From Schwartzia sp. (in: firmicutes) (GTDB lineage Bacteria > Bacillota > Negativicutes > Selenomonadales > Selenomonadaceae), in assembly GCA_017480545.1 (NCBI GenBank), contig JAFVAI010000102.1, forward strand, positions 1 through 64,000: a stretch of 64,000 bases of DNA, given 5' to 3'. The notes below the pieces were generated by a model. That model was not told the DNA's origin. It saw only the letters and a program-made list of their open reading frames with translations, and searched no databases. The first letter of the stretch is position 1. Each line of letters begins with the position of its first letter. Of this stretch, positions 8,987 to 52,658 are shown piece after piece. Both the position numbers and the translations under genes were made by a program.

Positions 8987-9601
8987 ATGGACACAGCGAC
9001 ACTTTTCTATTTTCTGCTCGCCTCGGTTCTCCTGACCCTGGCGCCCGGCCCGGACATCATGTACCTTTTGGCGAAAAGCATCGCCGACGGCGCGCGGAGC
9101 GGCGTCGCGCTGGCGGGCGGCCTCGCCAGCGGCGTCCTGTTCCACACGGCGCTCGTGATCCTCGGCGTGGCGGCGCTGCTCCAAAGCTCCCCGTCCGCCC
9201 TCGCCGCGCTCAAGTTGCTTGGCGCGCTTTATCTCCTGTATCTCGCCCGGGGCGCGTTCCGGGACAGGAGCGAGCTTCGCCCGGAGCGCGCGGGGGGAGC
9301 CGAAAGCCGCGCTTCCCTTTATCGGCGCGGCGTCATGATGAACGTGCTGAATCCCAAGGTGCTCCTCTTTTTCCTCACGTTCTTTCCGCAGTTTCTTCCG
9401 ACCGACGCGGAAACTGTCGGCTGGAGGATCGCGCTTCTCGGTCTTTTGTTCGCGGCGCAGGCCTTCCTGATTTTTTCCGCCGTCGCCCTCTGCGCGGGCC
9501 GGCTCCGCCGCCTGCTGGCGCGAAAAAAGAACATCGGGCGCGTCCTCCACGTCACGGAAGGAGCCGTCCTGCTCCTCATCGCGATCGCGCTTCTGTTTTG
9601 A
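8987..9601 (+). CDS. LysE/RhtB-family amino-acid exporter
   Basis: Inner-membrane protein of 204 aa that is mostly hydrophobic, with about five or six predicted segments. The N-terminal LTLAPGPDIMYLLAKS is the LysE/RhtB signature (TPGPD-like with G-P-D). The central NVLNPKVLLFFLTFFPQF is the second family hallmark. The family exports amino acids or similar metabolites by proton exchange; the substrate cannot be told from sequence. It lies directly behind nadE and is followed by a dispersed repeat and a bidirectional terminator. Confidence 0.88.
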   Translation: MDTATLFYFLLASVLLTLAPGPDIMYLLAKSIADGARSGVALAGGLASGVLFHTALVILGVAALLQSSPSALAALKLLGALYLLYLARGAFRDRSELRPERAGGAESRASLYRRGVMMNVLNPKVLLFFLTFFPQFLPTDAETVGWRIALLGLLFAAQAFLIFSAVALCAGRLRRLLARKKNIGRVLHVTEGAVLLLIAIALLF

Positions 9602-9605
9602 TACT

Positions 9606-9738
9606 ACTCTCTGTTAAGATTTTTAAATCTTTACAGAGAGTGCATGAGACGTCAGACGAGCCGAAGGCTCGGCTGTAGCCTGCGAAGCAGGCGTATCTCA
9701 GGTCAAAATTTTTATTTAAAATTTTGGTCTGAGATACG
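9606..9738. repeat. Dispersed structured repeat, family A copy 1 (about 133 bp)
   Basis: Four hairpins in a row: 9606-9641 (ACTCTCTGT/ACAGAGAGT with inner AGATTT/AAATCT), about 9657-9672 (CGAGCC/GGCTCG), 9678-9692 (GCCTGC/GCAGGC) and 9692-9738 (CGTATCTCAG/CTGAGATACG with an AT-rich inner stem). The second copy is at 48051-48181. The linker between stems 1 and 2 is identical in both copies, while stems 1 and 2 differ but still pair. It lies between two convergent genes. Confidence 0.8.
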
Positions 9739-9753
9739 TATGAAAACACGAAA

Positions 9754-46390: not shown

Positions 46391-47923
46391 CTATCCTTGC
46401 TCCAGTCCTATATCATTCCGCAGCTGCACCGCCTCGCCGACGTGCTTCGCCCCGATATCTTTTGCGCCGTCCATATCCGCAATCGTCCGCGCCACCTTGA
46501 TGATGCGGTCATAGGACCGCGCCGACAAGCCCATTTTCTTGAACGCCATTTCCAAAAGGCTCTGCGCCTCATTTCCCAGCGGGCATTGCTCCTTCAGCAT
46601 GGCATGGTTCATCTGTGCGTTGGTGAAGATGCCGGTTCCCTTGAAGCGTTCCAGCTGGATATTCCTTGCGGCGACCACCCGCTTGCGGATGGATTCGGAG
46701 CTTTCCGCCTTGCTCTGGGAGGCCAAGTCCTTGTACTCCACTTGGGGAACGCGGATGTGAATGTCGATTCGATCCAGAAGCGGGCCAGAGATTTTGCTTT
46801 GATATTTTTTTATTTCCTGCGGCGTACATGTGCATTTATGAACCCCATCCGAAATTCCAGCCATCCCACATGGGCAATTATTTGCAGCTGCAAGGAGTAT
46901 GAAGTTCGCGGGAAATGTCAAGGTGGCGTTCACCCGCGAAATGGTCACCTTCCTGTCCTCCAACGGCTGGCGCAAAACCTCCAGCGTCGCCTTGTTGAAC
47001 TCCGGCACTTCATCCAAGAACAATACACCATGCTGTGCCAACGTGACCTCGCCGGGACGCGGGTATGTGCCGCCGCCGATGAGCGCCGTGGTCGACGCGG
47101 TATGATGCGGGCTTCTGAACGGACGCTTCCGAACCAAGCCGCCGCCCGGAGGAAGAAGCCCCGCAATGCTGTATATTTTCGTGACCTCCAAGGCCTCCTG
47201 CGTGGTCAGGCCCGGGAGGATGGAATTCATCCGCCGCGCCAGCATGGTCTTCCCGGAGCCGGGCGCGCCGCTCATCAACACATTGTGCCCTCCGGCCGCA
47301 GCTATTTCCAGCGCGCGTTTTGCTTGGAACTGCCCCTGCACGTCGGCAAAGTCATCGGCGAAAATGTCTTCTGCTTTTTCCTCATTGGTCGGCCTTGCCG
47401 GGGACAGCTCTGTCCTCCCCGAGAGATAATCCACCAACTCGCGGAGATTGTCGACGGCATAAACGGTCAGCCCGTCCACCAGCAAGGCTTCGTTGGCATT
47501 GTGGCGGGAAGTGAAGATTTCCTTGAATCCCATCTCCCGCGCTTTCACCGCCATCGGCAGGATACCGTTCACGCCCCGAAGCTCCCCCTCCAACGAGAGT
47601 TCCGCTGAAAAAAGCCGCCCCTCCAACGCTTCCTGTGGCAGGACGGCATAAGCCGTGAGAAGCCCCATGGCAATAGGAAGGTCAAGCCCCGGATTGTCCT
47701 TGCGAAGGTTTGCAGGCGCCAAGTTCACGGTTACCTTCTCCGCCTTGAGCTTCAGGCCGGAGTTCTTGATGGCAGTCCTCACCCGTTCCTTCGCTTCCTT
47801 CACCGAGGCATCGGGAAGCCCGACAATGTCGAAGCACGGCAGGCCGTTGGCGCAGTCCACCTCCACATCAATCATTACGCCGTCCACGCCCAACGTGGTC
47901 GCGCCATGAGATTTCGCAAACAA
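46391..47923 (-). CDS. comM: ComM/YifB-type Mg-chelatase-like AAA+ ATPase
   Basis: About 510 aa. In Haemophilus and Vibrio, ComM is a branch-migration helicase needed for natural transformation. An N-terminal Lon-protease-like fold (VDVEVDCANGLPCFDIVGLPDASVKEAKERV) is followed by an AAA+ core with GAPGSGKTMLARR, LFLDEVPEF and a C-terminal Mg-chelatase domain. The start chosen is a TTG with GGAAGGGGG upstream (LFAKSHGATTLGVDG). It heads the operon that continues into aroE and the pil genes, consistent with a role in DNA uptake. Confidence 0.93.
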   Translation of the reverse strand: MFAKSHGATTLGVDGVMIDVEVDCANGLPCFDIVGLPDASVKEAKERVRTAIKNSGLKLKAEKVTVNLAPANLRKDNPGLDLPIAMGLLTAYAVLPQEALEGRLFSAELSLEGELRGVNGILPMAVKAREMGFKEIFTSRHNANEALLVDGLTVYAVDNLRELVDYLSGRTELSPARPTNEEKAEDIFADDFADVQGQFQAKRALEIAAAGGHNVLMSGAPGSGKTMLARRMNSILPGLTTQEALEVTKIYSIAGLLPPGGGLVRKRPFRSPHHTASTTALIGGGTYPRPGEVTLAQHGVLFLDEVPEFNKATLEVLRQPLEDRKVTISRVNATLTFPANFILLAAANNCPCGMAGISDGVHKCTCTPQEIKKYQSKISGPLLDRIDIHIRVPQVEYKDLASQSKAESSESIRKRVVAARNIQLERFKGTGIFTNAQMNHAMLKEQCPLGNEAQSLLEMAFKKMGLSARSYDRIIKVARTIADMDGAKDIGAKHVGEAVQLRNDIGLEQG

Positions 47924-47956
47924 TGCGCCGCCCCCTTCCAATCACAAACTTTTATT

Positions 47957-47985: not shown

Positions 47986-48050
47986 CAAGAAAAGCCCGAA
48001 GAGACAGGGCAACCGCATTTGCTTTTTTAGGAAACACCGCCACATCATAC

Positions 48051-48181
48051 GAATCGCAGTTAGGATTTTTAAATCCTTACTGCGATTGCATGAGACGTCA
48101 GACGCGCTTTGGCGCGGCTGTAGCCTGCGAAGCAGGCGCATCTCAGATCAAAATTTTATTTAAAATTTTGGTCTGAGATAA
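48051..48181. repeat. Dispersed structured repeat, family A copy 2 (about 131 bp)
   Basis: It has the same layout as 9606-9738. Stem 1 is AATCGCAGT/ACTGCGATT with inner GGATTT/AAATCC. Stem 2 is CGCGC/GCGCG, stem 3 GCCTGC/GCAGGC, and stem 4 ATCTCAG/CTGAGAT around an AT-rich inner stem. Stems 1 and 2 differ from copy 1 on both sides so that pairing is kept, whereas linkers and stem 3 are nearly identical. It lies between the comM promoter and the end of the Nif11 peptide unit. Confidence 0.8.
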
Positions 48182-48247
48182 GTATCAGTTGCAGCAGAAG
48201 CAGGAAACCACGTGGCAAAAAATATGCGGTCTGGACTCTTAATAATC

Positions 48248-48317: not shown

Positions 48318-48581
48318 TTAATGATCCCACTCACACCAAGTATTGCAATAGTTAGGATCGTTAGCCATGTAGCAGGCGCCTCCGGCAATTTTTTTCAAAT
48401 TTTCTTCGTTTATTTCGAAGTCTGCCAGCTCCGCCACATACGCTTCGGCTTCATCCTTTGTCAGCGCAATGCCTTCGGTGTCCGCCAACTCAATAAGTTC
48501 GTCAGCATTTTTGCACTTCATCGCCTTAATCATCTGTTCTTTCGTAAGTTCATTTTTGTTGACTGGCTTGTTGACTGGCAT
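48318..48581 (-). CDS. Nif11-type RiPP precursor peptide, Cys-rich core
   Basis: An 87-aa precursor of the Nif11-like leader family. The leader has the typical pattern (ELTKEQMIKAMKC, DELIELADTEGIALTKDEA, AYVAELADFEI) ending IAGG, a double-glycine cleavage site. The predicted core ACYMANDPNYCNTWCEWDH has three Cys, two Trp and a His, suited to thioether, disulfide or other ring formation. GGGGGAG lies seven bases before the ATG. No modification enzyme, protease or ABC transporter is adjacent. The leader is paralogous to that of the neighbouring gene. Confidence 0.85.
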   Translation of the reverse strand: MPVNKPVNKNELTKEQMIKAMKCKNADELIELADTEGIALTKDEAEAYVAELADFEINEENLKKIAGGACYMANDPNYCNTWCEWDH

Positions 48582-48633
48582 TTTAGAGCTCCCCCCCAAT
48601 ACTTGAAGTATAAAAAACTAACCTTTGCCCATG

Positions 48634-48873
48634 CTATTTCAGATGTTTATATCTGGCTGAGCCGTAGCTTCTTCCCCACTTGCCGCCGGCCACGTTTTGC
48701 AACGTGTCGCTGTCAAGTTCAAAATCGGCAAGTTCTTCCAAGTACGTTTTTGCTTCTTCTTCGGTGATAGCAACGCCTCCGGATTTGGCCAGCGCCATTA
48801 ATTCTTCCGCAGTGCTGCACTGCATCGCTTTTTCAAGCATTTCTTTTGTGAGTTCGCTTCTGTTGATTGGCAT
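48634..48873 (-). CDS. Nif11-type RiPP precursor peptide, basic core
   Basis: A 79-aa precursor with a Nif11-like leader (ELTKEMLEKAMQC, EELMALAKSGGVAITEEEA, TYLEELADFELDSDTLQNVAGG). The predicted core KWGRSYGSARYKHLK is 15 residues, basic, with no Cys or Thr. It is quite unlike its neighbour's core although the leaders align along their length. GGTGGAGG precedes the ATG. It is first in a two-gene unit with a strong promoter; the second peptide starts 52 bp after its stop. Confidence 0.85.
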   Translation of the reverse strand: MPINRSELTKEMLEKAMQCSTAEELMALAKSGGVAITEEEAKTYLEELADFELDSDTLQNVAGGKWGRSYGSARYKHLK

Positions 48874-48933
48874 TTTCAGAACCTCCACCAAAAATTAAAG
48901 AAACCGTACTTTCATAGTACTTTCTGAATCGCG

Positions 48934-48962
48934 ATTATAACAAAAAAATTCGTGAATTGCAA
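48934..48962 (-). promoter_or_regulatory. Promoter of the Nif11 peptide unit
   Basis: TTGCAA, 17 bases, TATAAT with a TG extension (TGTTATAAT) on the minus strand, about 60 bp before the first peptide gene. It is one of the best promoter matches in the window. Confidence 0.7.
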
Positions 48963-48993
48963 ACCGAGACGATGAGGCGTGAGGTTTCTTGCA

Positions 48994-49046: not shown

Positions 49047-52000
49047 TTACCGACCGTAAGTTTTCACCAACGCCGACAGTTTTTCCGCGACTTGGTCGTT
49101 CAGTTTTCCTTCTTTGATGCGCCAACCCCAGTTTCCCTCCGGGGTGCCGGGGAGGTTCATTCGGTGGCGGCCGCCGAGGGCCAAGATATCCTGCGCGGGT
49201 ACGATGACCAACCTTGCTTCGGAGGCGTAGGCAAGTTCGACGAGTTTTTCCGCTGCCTGCTTTGCCGTTTCCGCGCCGTTCTGCTCCGTCTCGGGCATGA
49301 CACCGAGCCATGCGGCGACTTTCGCTCGATCCTCATAGCCAAGGTCTTCCGCGTACCACCCCGCCGCCGTGTTGTTGTCATGGGTGCCGGTGTAGAGCGC
49401 GCAGTTTTCGGGCGCGGCGACACCCGCCCGGGGCGTGCCGTTGCCGAGGCATTCAAACTCGATGACTTTCATGCCCGGCAGGCCGCTGGTTTCCAACAAC
49501 TGTGCCACGTCGTCGGACTGCACACCGAGGTCTTCGGCAACGATGGGCAGATGGTCGCCGAGCCGCTGACGAAGCGCGTGCAAGAGCGCGATGCCGGGCC
49601 CCTTTTGCCATTTCCCGTTTTTCGCGGTGGTCTCCTTCGCGTCGACTTCCCAATAGGAAGCAAGGCCCCGGAAATGGTCGATGCGCACGATGTCCACCAG
49701 CCGAAGGAGGCGCGCCACGCGCTCCACCCACCAAGAGAAGTTGTCTCTTTTCATCTCATCCCAGTTGTAGAGCGGGTTGCCCCAAAGCTGGCCGTCTTCG
49801 CTGAAATAGTCCGGCGGGACGCCGGCGACTTTTTCCGGCCTGCCCTTTTCGTCGAGGGCGAACAGGGACCGATGCGCCCAGACATCGGCGCTGTTTTGCG
49901 CCAGATAGAGCGGCATATCGCCAAAAACGCGCACCCCCTTGGCGGCGGCGATATGATGGAGCGCCTGCCATTGGCGTTCAAACAAATATTGCTGGAATTT
50001 CACAAAGGCGATGTTGTCCGCCGCCCGCTTCCGGAGATCGGCGAGAGCCGAGGAATCGCGGTCGCGAAGGGCGGGCTCCCATTCCGTCCAAGCTTTGCCG
50101 CCGTTTTCCTCCGAAGCCGCCGTGAAGAGGGCGTAATCGTCGATCCACGAGGCTTCTTTCTCGCAGAAGTCCGCGAAGTCTTTCGGCGGGTTCTGGCGGA
50201 AGCGCTGCCACGCGCGGCGCAAGAGGCCGTTCTTGACCGCGCCGACGCGAACGTAGTTCACGGCGCTCGCGGTGCAGGGGCGAGCCTGCATAGAACCGCC
50301 CGCGTAAGAGCGGGCGACGCCGAGGGCGGTTTTGCCCCATTCGAGATCGACATCGGTGAGCCAGCCGTCCTCCGCGATTTTTTCCGGCGACAGGAGCAAC
50401 GGGTTCCCGGCGAAGGCCGAGGGCGGCTGGTATGGCGAATTGCCCGGGCCGACGGGGCCGAGGGGCAAAATCTGCCAGACGCTCTGGCTCGCTTTTTGCA
50501 GGAAGCCGAGGAATTTCTCCGCCCGGTCGCCGAGGTCGCCGATGCCCCATTCCGAGGGGAAAGAGGTCGGGTGCAGCAACACGCCCGCCATGCGCGGGAA
50601 ACGGCGCGGCGGTTTCTTTTCCTGCCAGACTTCGGCAGAGAGCGGCGCGAGGGTTACGCAGAGCTTGCCGCCCGTGATGGCGAGCGGCTGTTTCCCCTCG
50701 CCCTCCCGCGTGTTCGAGGTCTTGTCCGCCGCGTCCTGCCAAGCGTCCGTCCGGTACACGGACAGGAATTTTCCCGTGGCGAAGTCGCCGACGGGCAGCT
50801 CGACTTTGACCGTTTCCCGTCCCCGGTTCAGCGCGATAACGAAGGCGCCGTCCGCCGCCGCCTCGCCAAAACGGTCCGCGCCGCCGCGCACGACGCGGGC
50901 GTAAGCGTAGAGGTCGCCCTCGGCAACGAGCGGGATAAAATCGCCCGTGGAAAGGGCGGCGTTCTCATTGCGAAGGCGCACGGCCTCCCGCACTTTGACG
51001 CGGAGCGCGGCATCGCCGCCGCTCCAGTCGTACGGGGCGCGGTTGTACGGGTCGCGATAGCCTTGCATGGCAATCTCGTCGCCGTAATAAATCGACGGCA
51101 TGCCGGGGAAGGTCATTTGCCAGACGAAGGCGATTTCCAGCCGTGCCCGTGCCAACGCCAGATGCTCCGCATCGAGCCGGAACCCCGCCCGCTCCTTTTC
51201 GCTGGCGCCCGGCTCCGGCGCTTCGCCGAGGAGGGTGGTGACGCGCTCCACGTCGTGGCTGCCGACGAGATTCATCATCGCGTAAAAATTGTGCGCTGGA
51301 TAATTTTCCCGCAGGCTCTCGACACGGCGGCAGGCTTCCCGTCCGTCCGCGCGCCCTAGCAGGAAGTCCAAGAGAATCGTGCGGAACGGATAATTCATCG
51401 CGCTGTCGATCTCATGCCCCGCGAGGTACATGCGCTGCTCGCCGTAGCTAGACTTGTTCGAGGCATCCTCCCAGACTTCGCCGATCATCGCCAAGTCTTT
51501 GTCCGTCTTTTTCAGTTCGCGGTAAAACGCTTGGGAAAATTTCGGCGGCAGCTCGTCGATGACATCCAGCCGCCAGCCGGAAACGCCGAGCTTCGCCCAA
51601 TGATGCAGCACACTGTCCTCCGCCGTGATGATGAAATCCATATAGGAAGGCTCGGTCTCTTTCACGTTCGGCAACGTGTCGAAGCCCCACCAACTGTGAT
51701 ATTTGTGCGGGTATTCGATGAAGTCGTACCACTTCGCGTAGGGCGAATCCGGCGACTGCCACGCGCCCACCGAATCATAAGCGCCTTTTTTGTTGAAATA
51801 GCGGCTGTTCGAGCCTGTATGGCTGAAAACGCCGTCCAGAATGACGCGGATGCCCTGCGCCTTTGCCTCGCGGCAGAAGTCCGCGAACTCCTCGTTGGTG
51901 CCGAGGAGCGGGTCGATGTTTTTGTAATCGCCGGTGTCGTAACGGTGATTGCTCTCCGCCTCAAAGACGGGATTGAAGTAAATGACGGAAATGCCCAGTT

Positions 52001-52658
52001 CTTTCAGATACGGCAGCTTGGCGCGAACGCCGGCGATATTTCCGCCGTAAAAGTCATAGGCGATGATTTCCTTCGTGTCGGGATCCTTGTAATAGCAGGG
52101 CGCGTCCTTCCATGAGGCGTGGAGCACCGCGCCGTGCTTTTCCGCCTCGCGAATGTGCTCGCGATAGAAGCGGTCGGGAAAAATCTGGTACATGACCGCC
52201 CGGCGCATCCATGCGGGCGTTGCCGCGCCCACGTCGTAGACCGTGATCTGGAAAGACCCGGGCGGCACATCGCAAAGGCCGCCTTCGCCGCCGAGACCGC
52301 CGGTATTGCCGTAATAATAGACGCGATGGTCGACGATCAAAATGAAATAGTACCAAAGCAACCCGCCCGCTTCGGGCAAGTCGATGACCGCGCCGAACCA
52401 GCGCGCCGCATCAGAAAGAGGCAACGGCTGTCCCGTTGCCTCTTGTTCTTCCGTATCGTTTTCCCCGCGGGCATACTCCGCCAACGGAACCAGCGTTTCA
52501 CCGACGCCGTCGCGCCAGACGCGCACTTGCCCCTCCAAAGACGCCGCGCCTGCGACAGAGATCGCGAGGCGCACACGGCCGCCGGCCTCGGCCGCCCCCA
52601 ACGGGAAGCGAAAAGCCGCGTCCCGCGAATCATGCTTAACCGTGAGCTGTACAGCCAA
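49047..52658 (-). CDS. Bifunctional GH13 amylase/debranching enzyme fused to GH77 4-alpha-glucanotransferase
   Basis: A 1203-aa fusion. The first part has a starch-binding-like N-domain (1-150), then a GH13 barrel with nucleophile D365 (GWRLDV), acid/base E394 (IGEVWED) and D469 (VGSHDVE). A beta-sandwich end follows (to about 690). The last roughly 500 residues are a MalQ-type GH77: GDMPLYLAQNSADVWAH, VRIDHFRGLASYWE with the nucleophile, VAEDLG and GTHDNN. Together they could trim and rearrange glycogen branches left by phosphorylase. The start is a TTG after AAAGGAGTGA. The exact GH13 specificity (neopullulanase or GlgX-like) is not certain. Last gene of the glg operon. Confidence 0.92.
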   Translation of the reverse strand: MAVQLTVKHDSRDAAFRFPLGAAEAGGRVRLAISVAGAASLEGQVRVWRDGVGETLVPLAEYARGENDTEEQEATGQPLPLSDAARWFGAVIDLPEAGGLLWYYFILIVDHRVYYYGNTGGLGGEGGLCDVPPGSFQITVYDVGAATPAWMRRAVMYQIFPDRFYREHIREAEKHGAVLHASWKDAPCYYKDPDTKEIIAYDFYGGNIAGVRAKLPYLKELGISVIYFNPVFEAESNHRYDTGDYKNIDPLLGTNEEFADFCREAKAQGIRVILDGVFSHTGSNSRYFNKKGAYDSVGAWQSPDSPYAKWYDFIEYPHKYHSWWGFDTLPNVKETEPSYMDFIITAEDSVLHHWAKLGVSGWRLDVIDELPPKFSQAFYRELKKTDKDLAMIGEVWEDASNKSSYGEQRMYLAGHEIDSAMNYPFRTILLDFLLGRADGREACRRVESLRENYPAHNFYAMMNLVGSHDVERVTTLLGEAPEPGASEKERAGFRLDAEHLALARARLEIAFVWQMTFPGMPSIYYGDEIAMQGYRDPYNRAPYDWSGGDAALRVKVREAVRLRNENAALSTGDFIPLVAEGDLYAYARVVRGGADRFGEAAADGAFVIALNRGRETVKVELPVGDFATGKFLSVYRTDAWQDAADKTSNTREGEGKQPLAITGGKLCVTLAPLSAEVWQEKKPPRRFPRMAGVLLHPTSFPSEWGIGDLGDRAEKFLGFLQKASQSVWQILPLGPVGPGNSPYQPPSAFAGNPLLLSPEKIAEDGWLTDVDLEWGKTALGVARSYAGGSMQARPCTASAVNYVRVGAVKNGLLRRAWQRFRQNPPKDFADFCEKEASWIDDYALFTAASEENGGKAWTEWEPALRDRDSSALADLRKRAADNIAFVKFQQYLFERQWQALHHIAAAKGVRVFGDMPLYLAQNSADVWAHRSLFALDEKGRPEKVAGVPPDYFSEDGQLWGNPLYNWDEMKRDNFSWWVERVARLLRLVDIVRIDHFRGLASYWEVDAKETTAKNGKWQKGPGIALLHALRQRLGDHLPIVAEDLGVQSDDVAQLLETSGLPGMKVIEFECLGNGTPRAGVAAPENCALYTGTHDNNTAAGWYAEDLGYEDRAKVAAWLGVMPETEQNGAETAKQAAEKLVELAYASEARLVIVPAQDILALGGRHRMNLPGTPEGNWGWRIKEGKLNDQVAEKLSALVKTYGR

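Follow-up and report, generated by a model that had tools for sequence, protein, structure and literature searches.

The window analysed here, a stretch of 64,000 nt, carries two short genes in tandem on its minus strand, P2 followed by P1, with 52 nt between them. P2 (48634..48873; ATG at 48873, stop ending at 48634) and P1 (48318..48581; ATG at 48581, stop ending at 48318) are both complete and encode putative Nif11-leader precursors of 79 and 87 aa, respectively. The leader of P2 comprises residues 1-64 and ends in VAGG, and it is followed by the basic, Cys-free core KWGRSYGSARYKHLK. The leader of P1 comprises residues 1-68 and ends in IAGG, and its core, ACYMANDPNYCNTWCEWDH, has three Cys and starts with C-Y, as do many cores of the genus. 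An earlier note on this DNA had described two tandem genes with parallel leaders and unrelated cores, and the genes, the leader ends and the core compositions read as it claimed. The two leaders align end to end with 48-50% identity, far above chance (E 2.6e-18).

The Shine-Dalgarno sequence of P2, GGAGG (48882..48886, minus strand), lies 8 nt 5' of the ATG, and a Shine-Dalgarno-like sequence, GGGGGGGAG (48589..48597, minus strand), lies 7 nt 5' of the P1 ATG. With good ribosome-binding sites 7-8 nt before both ATGs, the longer TTG starts given in the list of open reading frames are unnecessary. The promoter and the terminator that the same note had placed around the pair were both found by scanning, as consensus-based predictions. 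The predicted promoter is of the sigma-70 type (48934..48963, minus strand; TTGCAA-17-TATAAT), matches the consensus with a TG before the -10 box (extended -10), and lies about 60 nt upstream of P2; it would transcribe P2 and P1 together as the single promoter of the pair. The predicted intrinsic terminator 3' of P1 (48249..48275, minus strand) has a 12-bp stem followed by a T run. Promoter-like sites were in excess in the region (6 versus 1.1 expected from shuffled sequence), while terminator-like sites as a class were not (5 versus 3.9).

Both neighbors of the pair are housekeeping genes outside the system. Downstream is a YifB-family Mg-chelatase-like AAA ATPase (46391..47941, minus strand; TIGR00368, 597 bits), and upstream is a GlgX/4-alpha-glucanotransferase fusion (49047..52658, minus strand). 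Scans for tRNA genes and Rfam elements found none anywhere in the window. No maturase and no transporter adjoin the pair within the window, and thus any modification of P1 or P2 would be in trans. At 48047-48188 and 9601-9741, the window contains a repeat of about 142 bp that has inverted repeats inside it and may be a MITE or REP-like element; it recurs in L073, L160, L024, L071, L017 and other loci.

Both proteins matched the Nif11 leader profile TIGR03798, P2 with 29.7 bits (E 5.6e-7) and P1 with 20.8 bits (E 3.3e-4), scores that are under the curated cut-off of 32.3 bits. The alignments cover the C-terminal two thirds of the profile and reach its last position (68 of 68) at the Gly-Gly. 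P2 also had a weak match to PF07862 (20.0 bits), and its sole match in a sequence search of the PDB was a marginal one to the Nif11 protein 9zn4 (E 0.12). Among the 12 Nif11 leaders of the genome, P1 scores lowest and P2 third-lowest. Since the two are clearly homologous to paralogues of the same genome that pass the TIGR03798 cut-off, their membership in the Nif11-leader class is secured. The identification as Nif11-type precursors of ribosomal peptides is therefore supported, and P1 and P2 are best regarded as additional members of an established class, the N11P precursors. Outside the pair, the P1 leader is nearest to leaders on another contig of its own genome (C112) and in congeners G005 and G006 (61-63% identity), and the P2 leader to leaders in congeners G003 and G006 (61-68%). 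A recent tandem duplication was rejected because both leaders have nearer relatives elsewhere (61-68%) than each other (48-50%). A search of the plasmid collection gave no match to P0001, and a single-protein search of the genome contigs with P0001 found nothing, while an alignment query did find relatives.

The host is a Schwartzia-like rumen member of the Selenomonadaceae, with a genome assembly of 115 contigs that totals 2.25 Mb and is 82% complete. It contains 12 credible Nif11 precursors, including P1 and P2, on six contigs (C40, C48, C70, C84, which holds the window, C88 and C112). Four of the 12 pass the TIGR03798 cut-off alone and a fifth passes it together with its in-frame neighbors. 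Eleven of the cores contain Cys, P2 being the only Cys-free one. We compared this genome with 10 congeners (11 genomes of the genus in all). Nif11 leaders were present in all 11 and in only 1 of 14 other sampled genera of the family, and the number of precursors per genome ranged from 1 to 22. Scattered precursors are the rule in the genus. A conserved yifB-linked locus was rejected, since no precursor adjoins yifB in the eight congeners in which the upstream flank of yifB is covered. The sequence thus shows complete genes, homologous leaders, Gly-Gly ends, unrelated cores, expression signals and ten further paralogues. From established knowledge of the family, P1 and P2 are very probably precursors whose leader is cleaved and whose core is exported. 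A search of the open-access literature found no account of the Nif11 precursor repertoire of Schwartzia, which is weak evidence of novelty.

Several unusual precursors were seen in the genus and beyond. In one congener, L098:4113-6751 holds at least seven tandem precursors, the same as those of L059 and L067 of congener G006, and the run includes broken frames or frames that continue through more leader-like repeats. At L045:1144-1692 and L056:1144-1692, a Nif11 leader is joined to a conserved domain that is about 115 aa long, starts near CFLTTAVCEYLGK and was not recognized by Pfam. A Hint-like (hedgehog/intein) domain follows the core in other precursors, one of them on contig C112 of the same genome (L072:419-1129). 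That copy is just under the Pfam cut-offs (PF01079, 27.8 versus 29.7 bits; PF13403, 28.1 versus 28.4 bits). More precursors of this kind are at L093:630-1334, L105:4729-5436, L123:2943-3722 and L132:1710-2489, and L146 is similar. A literature search found no paper that combines Hint domain, RiPP and precursor peptide.

When the P1 and P2 cores alone were searched against 380 genomes of the class, both searches recovered just the window itself, apart from one marginal match for P1 (E 0.0096, 42% identity); no convincing relative of either core was found in the 379 other genomes. A control core matched in 12 genomes in the same kind of search, and thus the method is able to detect such cores. 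The P1 and P2 cores therefore appear private on present sampling. By simple counting, the substitution proportions between P1 and P2 are pS 0.61 and pN 0.27 in the leaders and pS 0.77 and pN 0.70 in the cores, whose alignment is not meaningful. One could suppose that the pair has been severed from its maturation machinery and has fallen into disuse, the private cores being a product of drift. The machinery is indeed not local, the cores were not found elsewhere, and yifB is without precursors in the eight congeners mentioned above. However, the frames are intact, strong ribosome-binding sites, a promoter and a terminator are in place, the excess of pS over pN in the leaders points to constraint now or until recently, and dispersed precursors are usual in the genus. 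We consider such decay very unlikely.

Candidate machinery is encoded elsewhere in the genome. Two C39-peptidase transporters of the NHLM_micro_ABC1 type are on contigs C93 and C112 (959 and 964 bits versus a cut-off of 853). C93 also carries an RND-type adaptor, NHLM_ABC2 (749 versus 709 bits) and NHLM HlyD (236 versus 156 bits), and on C112 an ABC2 homolog was found by tblastn near the second ABC1. The export set TIGR03794/03796/03797 is thus represented on these two contigs. Contig C70 encodes a radical SAM/SPASM protein of 524 aa; its gene stops 21 nt short of a Nif11 precursor, and homologs of the protein adjoin Nif11 precursors in many rumen genomes. Contig C48 encodes a B12-radical SAM C-methyltransferase (TIGR03975, 447 bits), and four precursors lie some 4 kb away from it. 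In L122 and L125, the SPASM enzyme, the B12-radical SAM enzyme, the RND-type adaptor, HlyD and ABC1 occur with a Nif11 precursor in one stretch, and therefore they probably form one system. A LanM route of the prochlorosin type was rejected, since no LanC-like protein (PF05147) was found in this genome or in six congeners. The link of P1 and P2 to the machinery on C70, C93 and C112 is one of co-occurrence in the genome, and at 82% completeness the assembly may lack further maturases.

Other genes near the maturases were also observed. A protein of 623 aa, with a SPASM-like domain at its C terminus and no radical SAM match, is encoded downstream of a SPASM maturase and a precursor (L070:2649-4520), and it is conserved in L122, L124, L127, L132 and L135. 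A small, perhaps regulatory protein with an LFR-x-ADF motif (L070:2417-2599) is encoded near precursors and the maturase, with homologs in L072, L127 and L139. In L129, a stretch resembling it lies ahead of a precursor.

The SPASM enzyme was present in one copy in 9 of the 11 congeneric genomes and in two copies in one, while the search of one incomplete genome yielded none. By comparison of coordinates, a precursor or core match lies no more than about 300 bp from 9 of the 11 copies. Across the family, the CxxxCxxC radical SAM motif and seven SPASM Cys are invariant. The N-terminal domain of the predicted structure consists of three strands and three helices (pLDDT mostly 91-97), and its topology suggests that it is RRE-like. 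The nearest solved fold to the C70 enzyme is 5wgg/5why, a thioether-forming sactipeptide-type enzyme, over 516 columns or nearly its whole length, followed by TigE (8vpo); 5wgg is the nearest solved structure by sequence as well. In its RRE-like N-terminal domain, CxxxCxxC core and 7-Cys SPASM domain, the C70 enzyme thus resembles the SPASM peptide maturases (5wgg, TIGR04463 and TIGR04064, the last of which is the nif11-like peptide radical SAM maturase). Unlike the named maturases, it scores far under all equivalog cut-offs (TIGR04463, 135 versus 525 bits; TIGR04064, 71.5 versus 518.7 bits), and its chemistry here is a prediction. One SPASM enzyme may serve all precursors of the genome, including P1 and P2.

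Our preferred explanation, which we consider probable as a whole, is that P1 and P2 are co-transcribed Nif11-leader precursors that are processed in trans by the C70 enzyme and exported through the C39 systems. From what is known of the family, the leader would be bound by the RRE-like N-terminal domain of this sole SPASM radical SAM maturase of the genome. The enzyme would then install Cys-based crosslinks in cores such as that of P1, with thioether as the nearest solved precedent, and a C39-peptidase NHLP exporter (C93 or C112) would cleave after the GG and secrete the core, again as expected for its family. Modification of P1 by the SPASM enzyme in trans is the step for which the balance tips only slightly in favor. 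P2 lacks Cys and might be exported unmodified, or altered at other residues by the C70 SPASM enzyme or the B12-radical SAM enzyme; that it is modified at all is rather doubtful.

It is also conceivable, though unlikely, that neither peptide is modified and that the leader serves export and C39 cleavage only, the free cores being secreted bacteriocins or signals, possibly acting as a pair. Weak matches to TIGR01847 and Bacteriocin_IIc at the leader end, a general double-glycine signal, agree with this, as do the basic, Cys-free core of P2, the C39 transporters of the genome and the absence of a maturase beside P1 and P2. However, the leaders are of the Nif11 type and much longer than usual double-glycine leaders, precursors of congeners directly adjoin the SPASM maturase, and 11 of the 12 cores of this genome contain Cys. 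Still less probable is that the main modifier of these cores is the C48 B12-radical SAM C-methyltransferase rather than the SPASM enzyme. This protein is a strong TIGR03975 member close to four precursors, and L122 and L125 have it together with the SPASM enzyme and NHLP genes. In the sampled loci, however, it is seen beside precursors much more rarely than the SPASM enzyme is.

Some cores of relatives are shared between lineages. We compared the cores of 144 precursors, mostly from rumen genomes, in an exploratory analysis whose thresholds were set after seeing the data; the relatives retrieved from the genome collection include many rumen MAGs. Near-identical cores occur in Spirochaetia or Lachnospiraceae and in Selenomonadales/Acidaminococcaceae, while the leaders follow the host lineage (L105, L114, L117, L118, L123, L126, L131, L134, L135, L144, L145 and L148). 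Of the 26 cores from spirochaetes, 8 have a counterpart in Selenomonadales/Acidaminococcaceae with at least 80% identity, a level that no core reached in 30 shuffled sets (best 0.62). For each of the 26 spirochaete precursors, the closest leader on any other contig again comes from a spirochaete precursor. Mis-binning of MAG contigs may account for part of the cross-phylum sharing, but the spirochaete-type leaders on the contigs with shared cores argue against it as a full account. In most shared-core pairs, third codon positions are about as diverged in the core as in the leader; in the GCYSDCKAEAWL example, 12 of 12 residues but 1 of 11 third positions are the same. Diverged third positions with conserved residues point to selection on the shared cores. 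Between L105 and L114, identity is 92% in the core, 87% in the 3' flank and 68% in the leader, a pattern suggestive of an exchange at the junction of leader and core. The earlier note had taken a conserved leader with a hypervariable core as the hallmark of these peptides. Within the genome this holds. Between phyla, however, several core types found among relatives are better conserved than the leaders. P1 and P2 are absent from the set of cross-phylum shared cores, and without core relatives, selection on these two cores cannot be shown.

The pair can be compared with several known systems. N11P precursors were described with TIGR03798 (Haft, Basu and Mitchell 2010, PMC2887384) in nitrogen fixers, most of them photosynthetic, whose machinery is of the cyclodehydratase or LanM kind. 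The present set shares with them the Gly-Gly-ended Nif11 leader, the short variable core, the large paralogous sets and the TIGR03794/03796/03797 export genes, but it comes from rumen Selenomonadaceae that have no LanC protein and have radical SAM candidates instead. In the prochlorosin system, a single promiscuous enzyme, ProcM, makes lanthionines on many ProcA precursors (PMC10783134). There too, many Nif11-leader precursors with a conserved leader and differing cores face one modifying-enzyme gene; in the present case a SPASM radical SAM enzyme is the candidate, and promiscuity has been shown for ProcM whereas here it is inferred. Unlike ranthipeptide and sactipeptide loci, which we compare in the way they work, the P1/P2 locus has no SPASM maturase beside it, although there is one beside the C70 paralogue. 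In spliceotides, PlpX excises Xaa-Tyr-Gly, and Nif11/NHLP leaders occur with a radical SAM enzyme (PMC11002830). The P2 core has Ser-Tyr-Gly like the spliceotide substrates, but a three-residue motif may be due to chance.

As a wider and more tentative picture, possible rather than probable, one RRE-SPASM enzyme per rumen genome would process scattered Nif11 precursors in trans, and the cores would be selected, exchanged units that are rejoined at the Gly-Gly to the lineage-specific leaders of Selenomonadales, Spirochaetia and Lachnospiraceae, with P1 and P2 being private and recently arisen. P1 and P2 themselves bring two core sequences not recorded before into an established precursor class, but their wider setting is of more use. 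The conservation of several cores between phyla with diverged synonymous sites suggests a selected function and marks which peptides to study first. With about 22 precursors at most against a single RRE-SPASM enzyme, this rumen genus offers a radical SAM system that can be tested as a counterpart of the prochlorosins, and if the enzyme is promiscuous, it would be usable for making libraries of crosslinked peptides.
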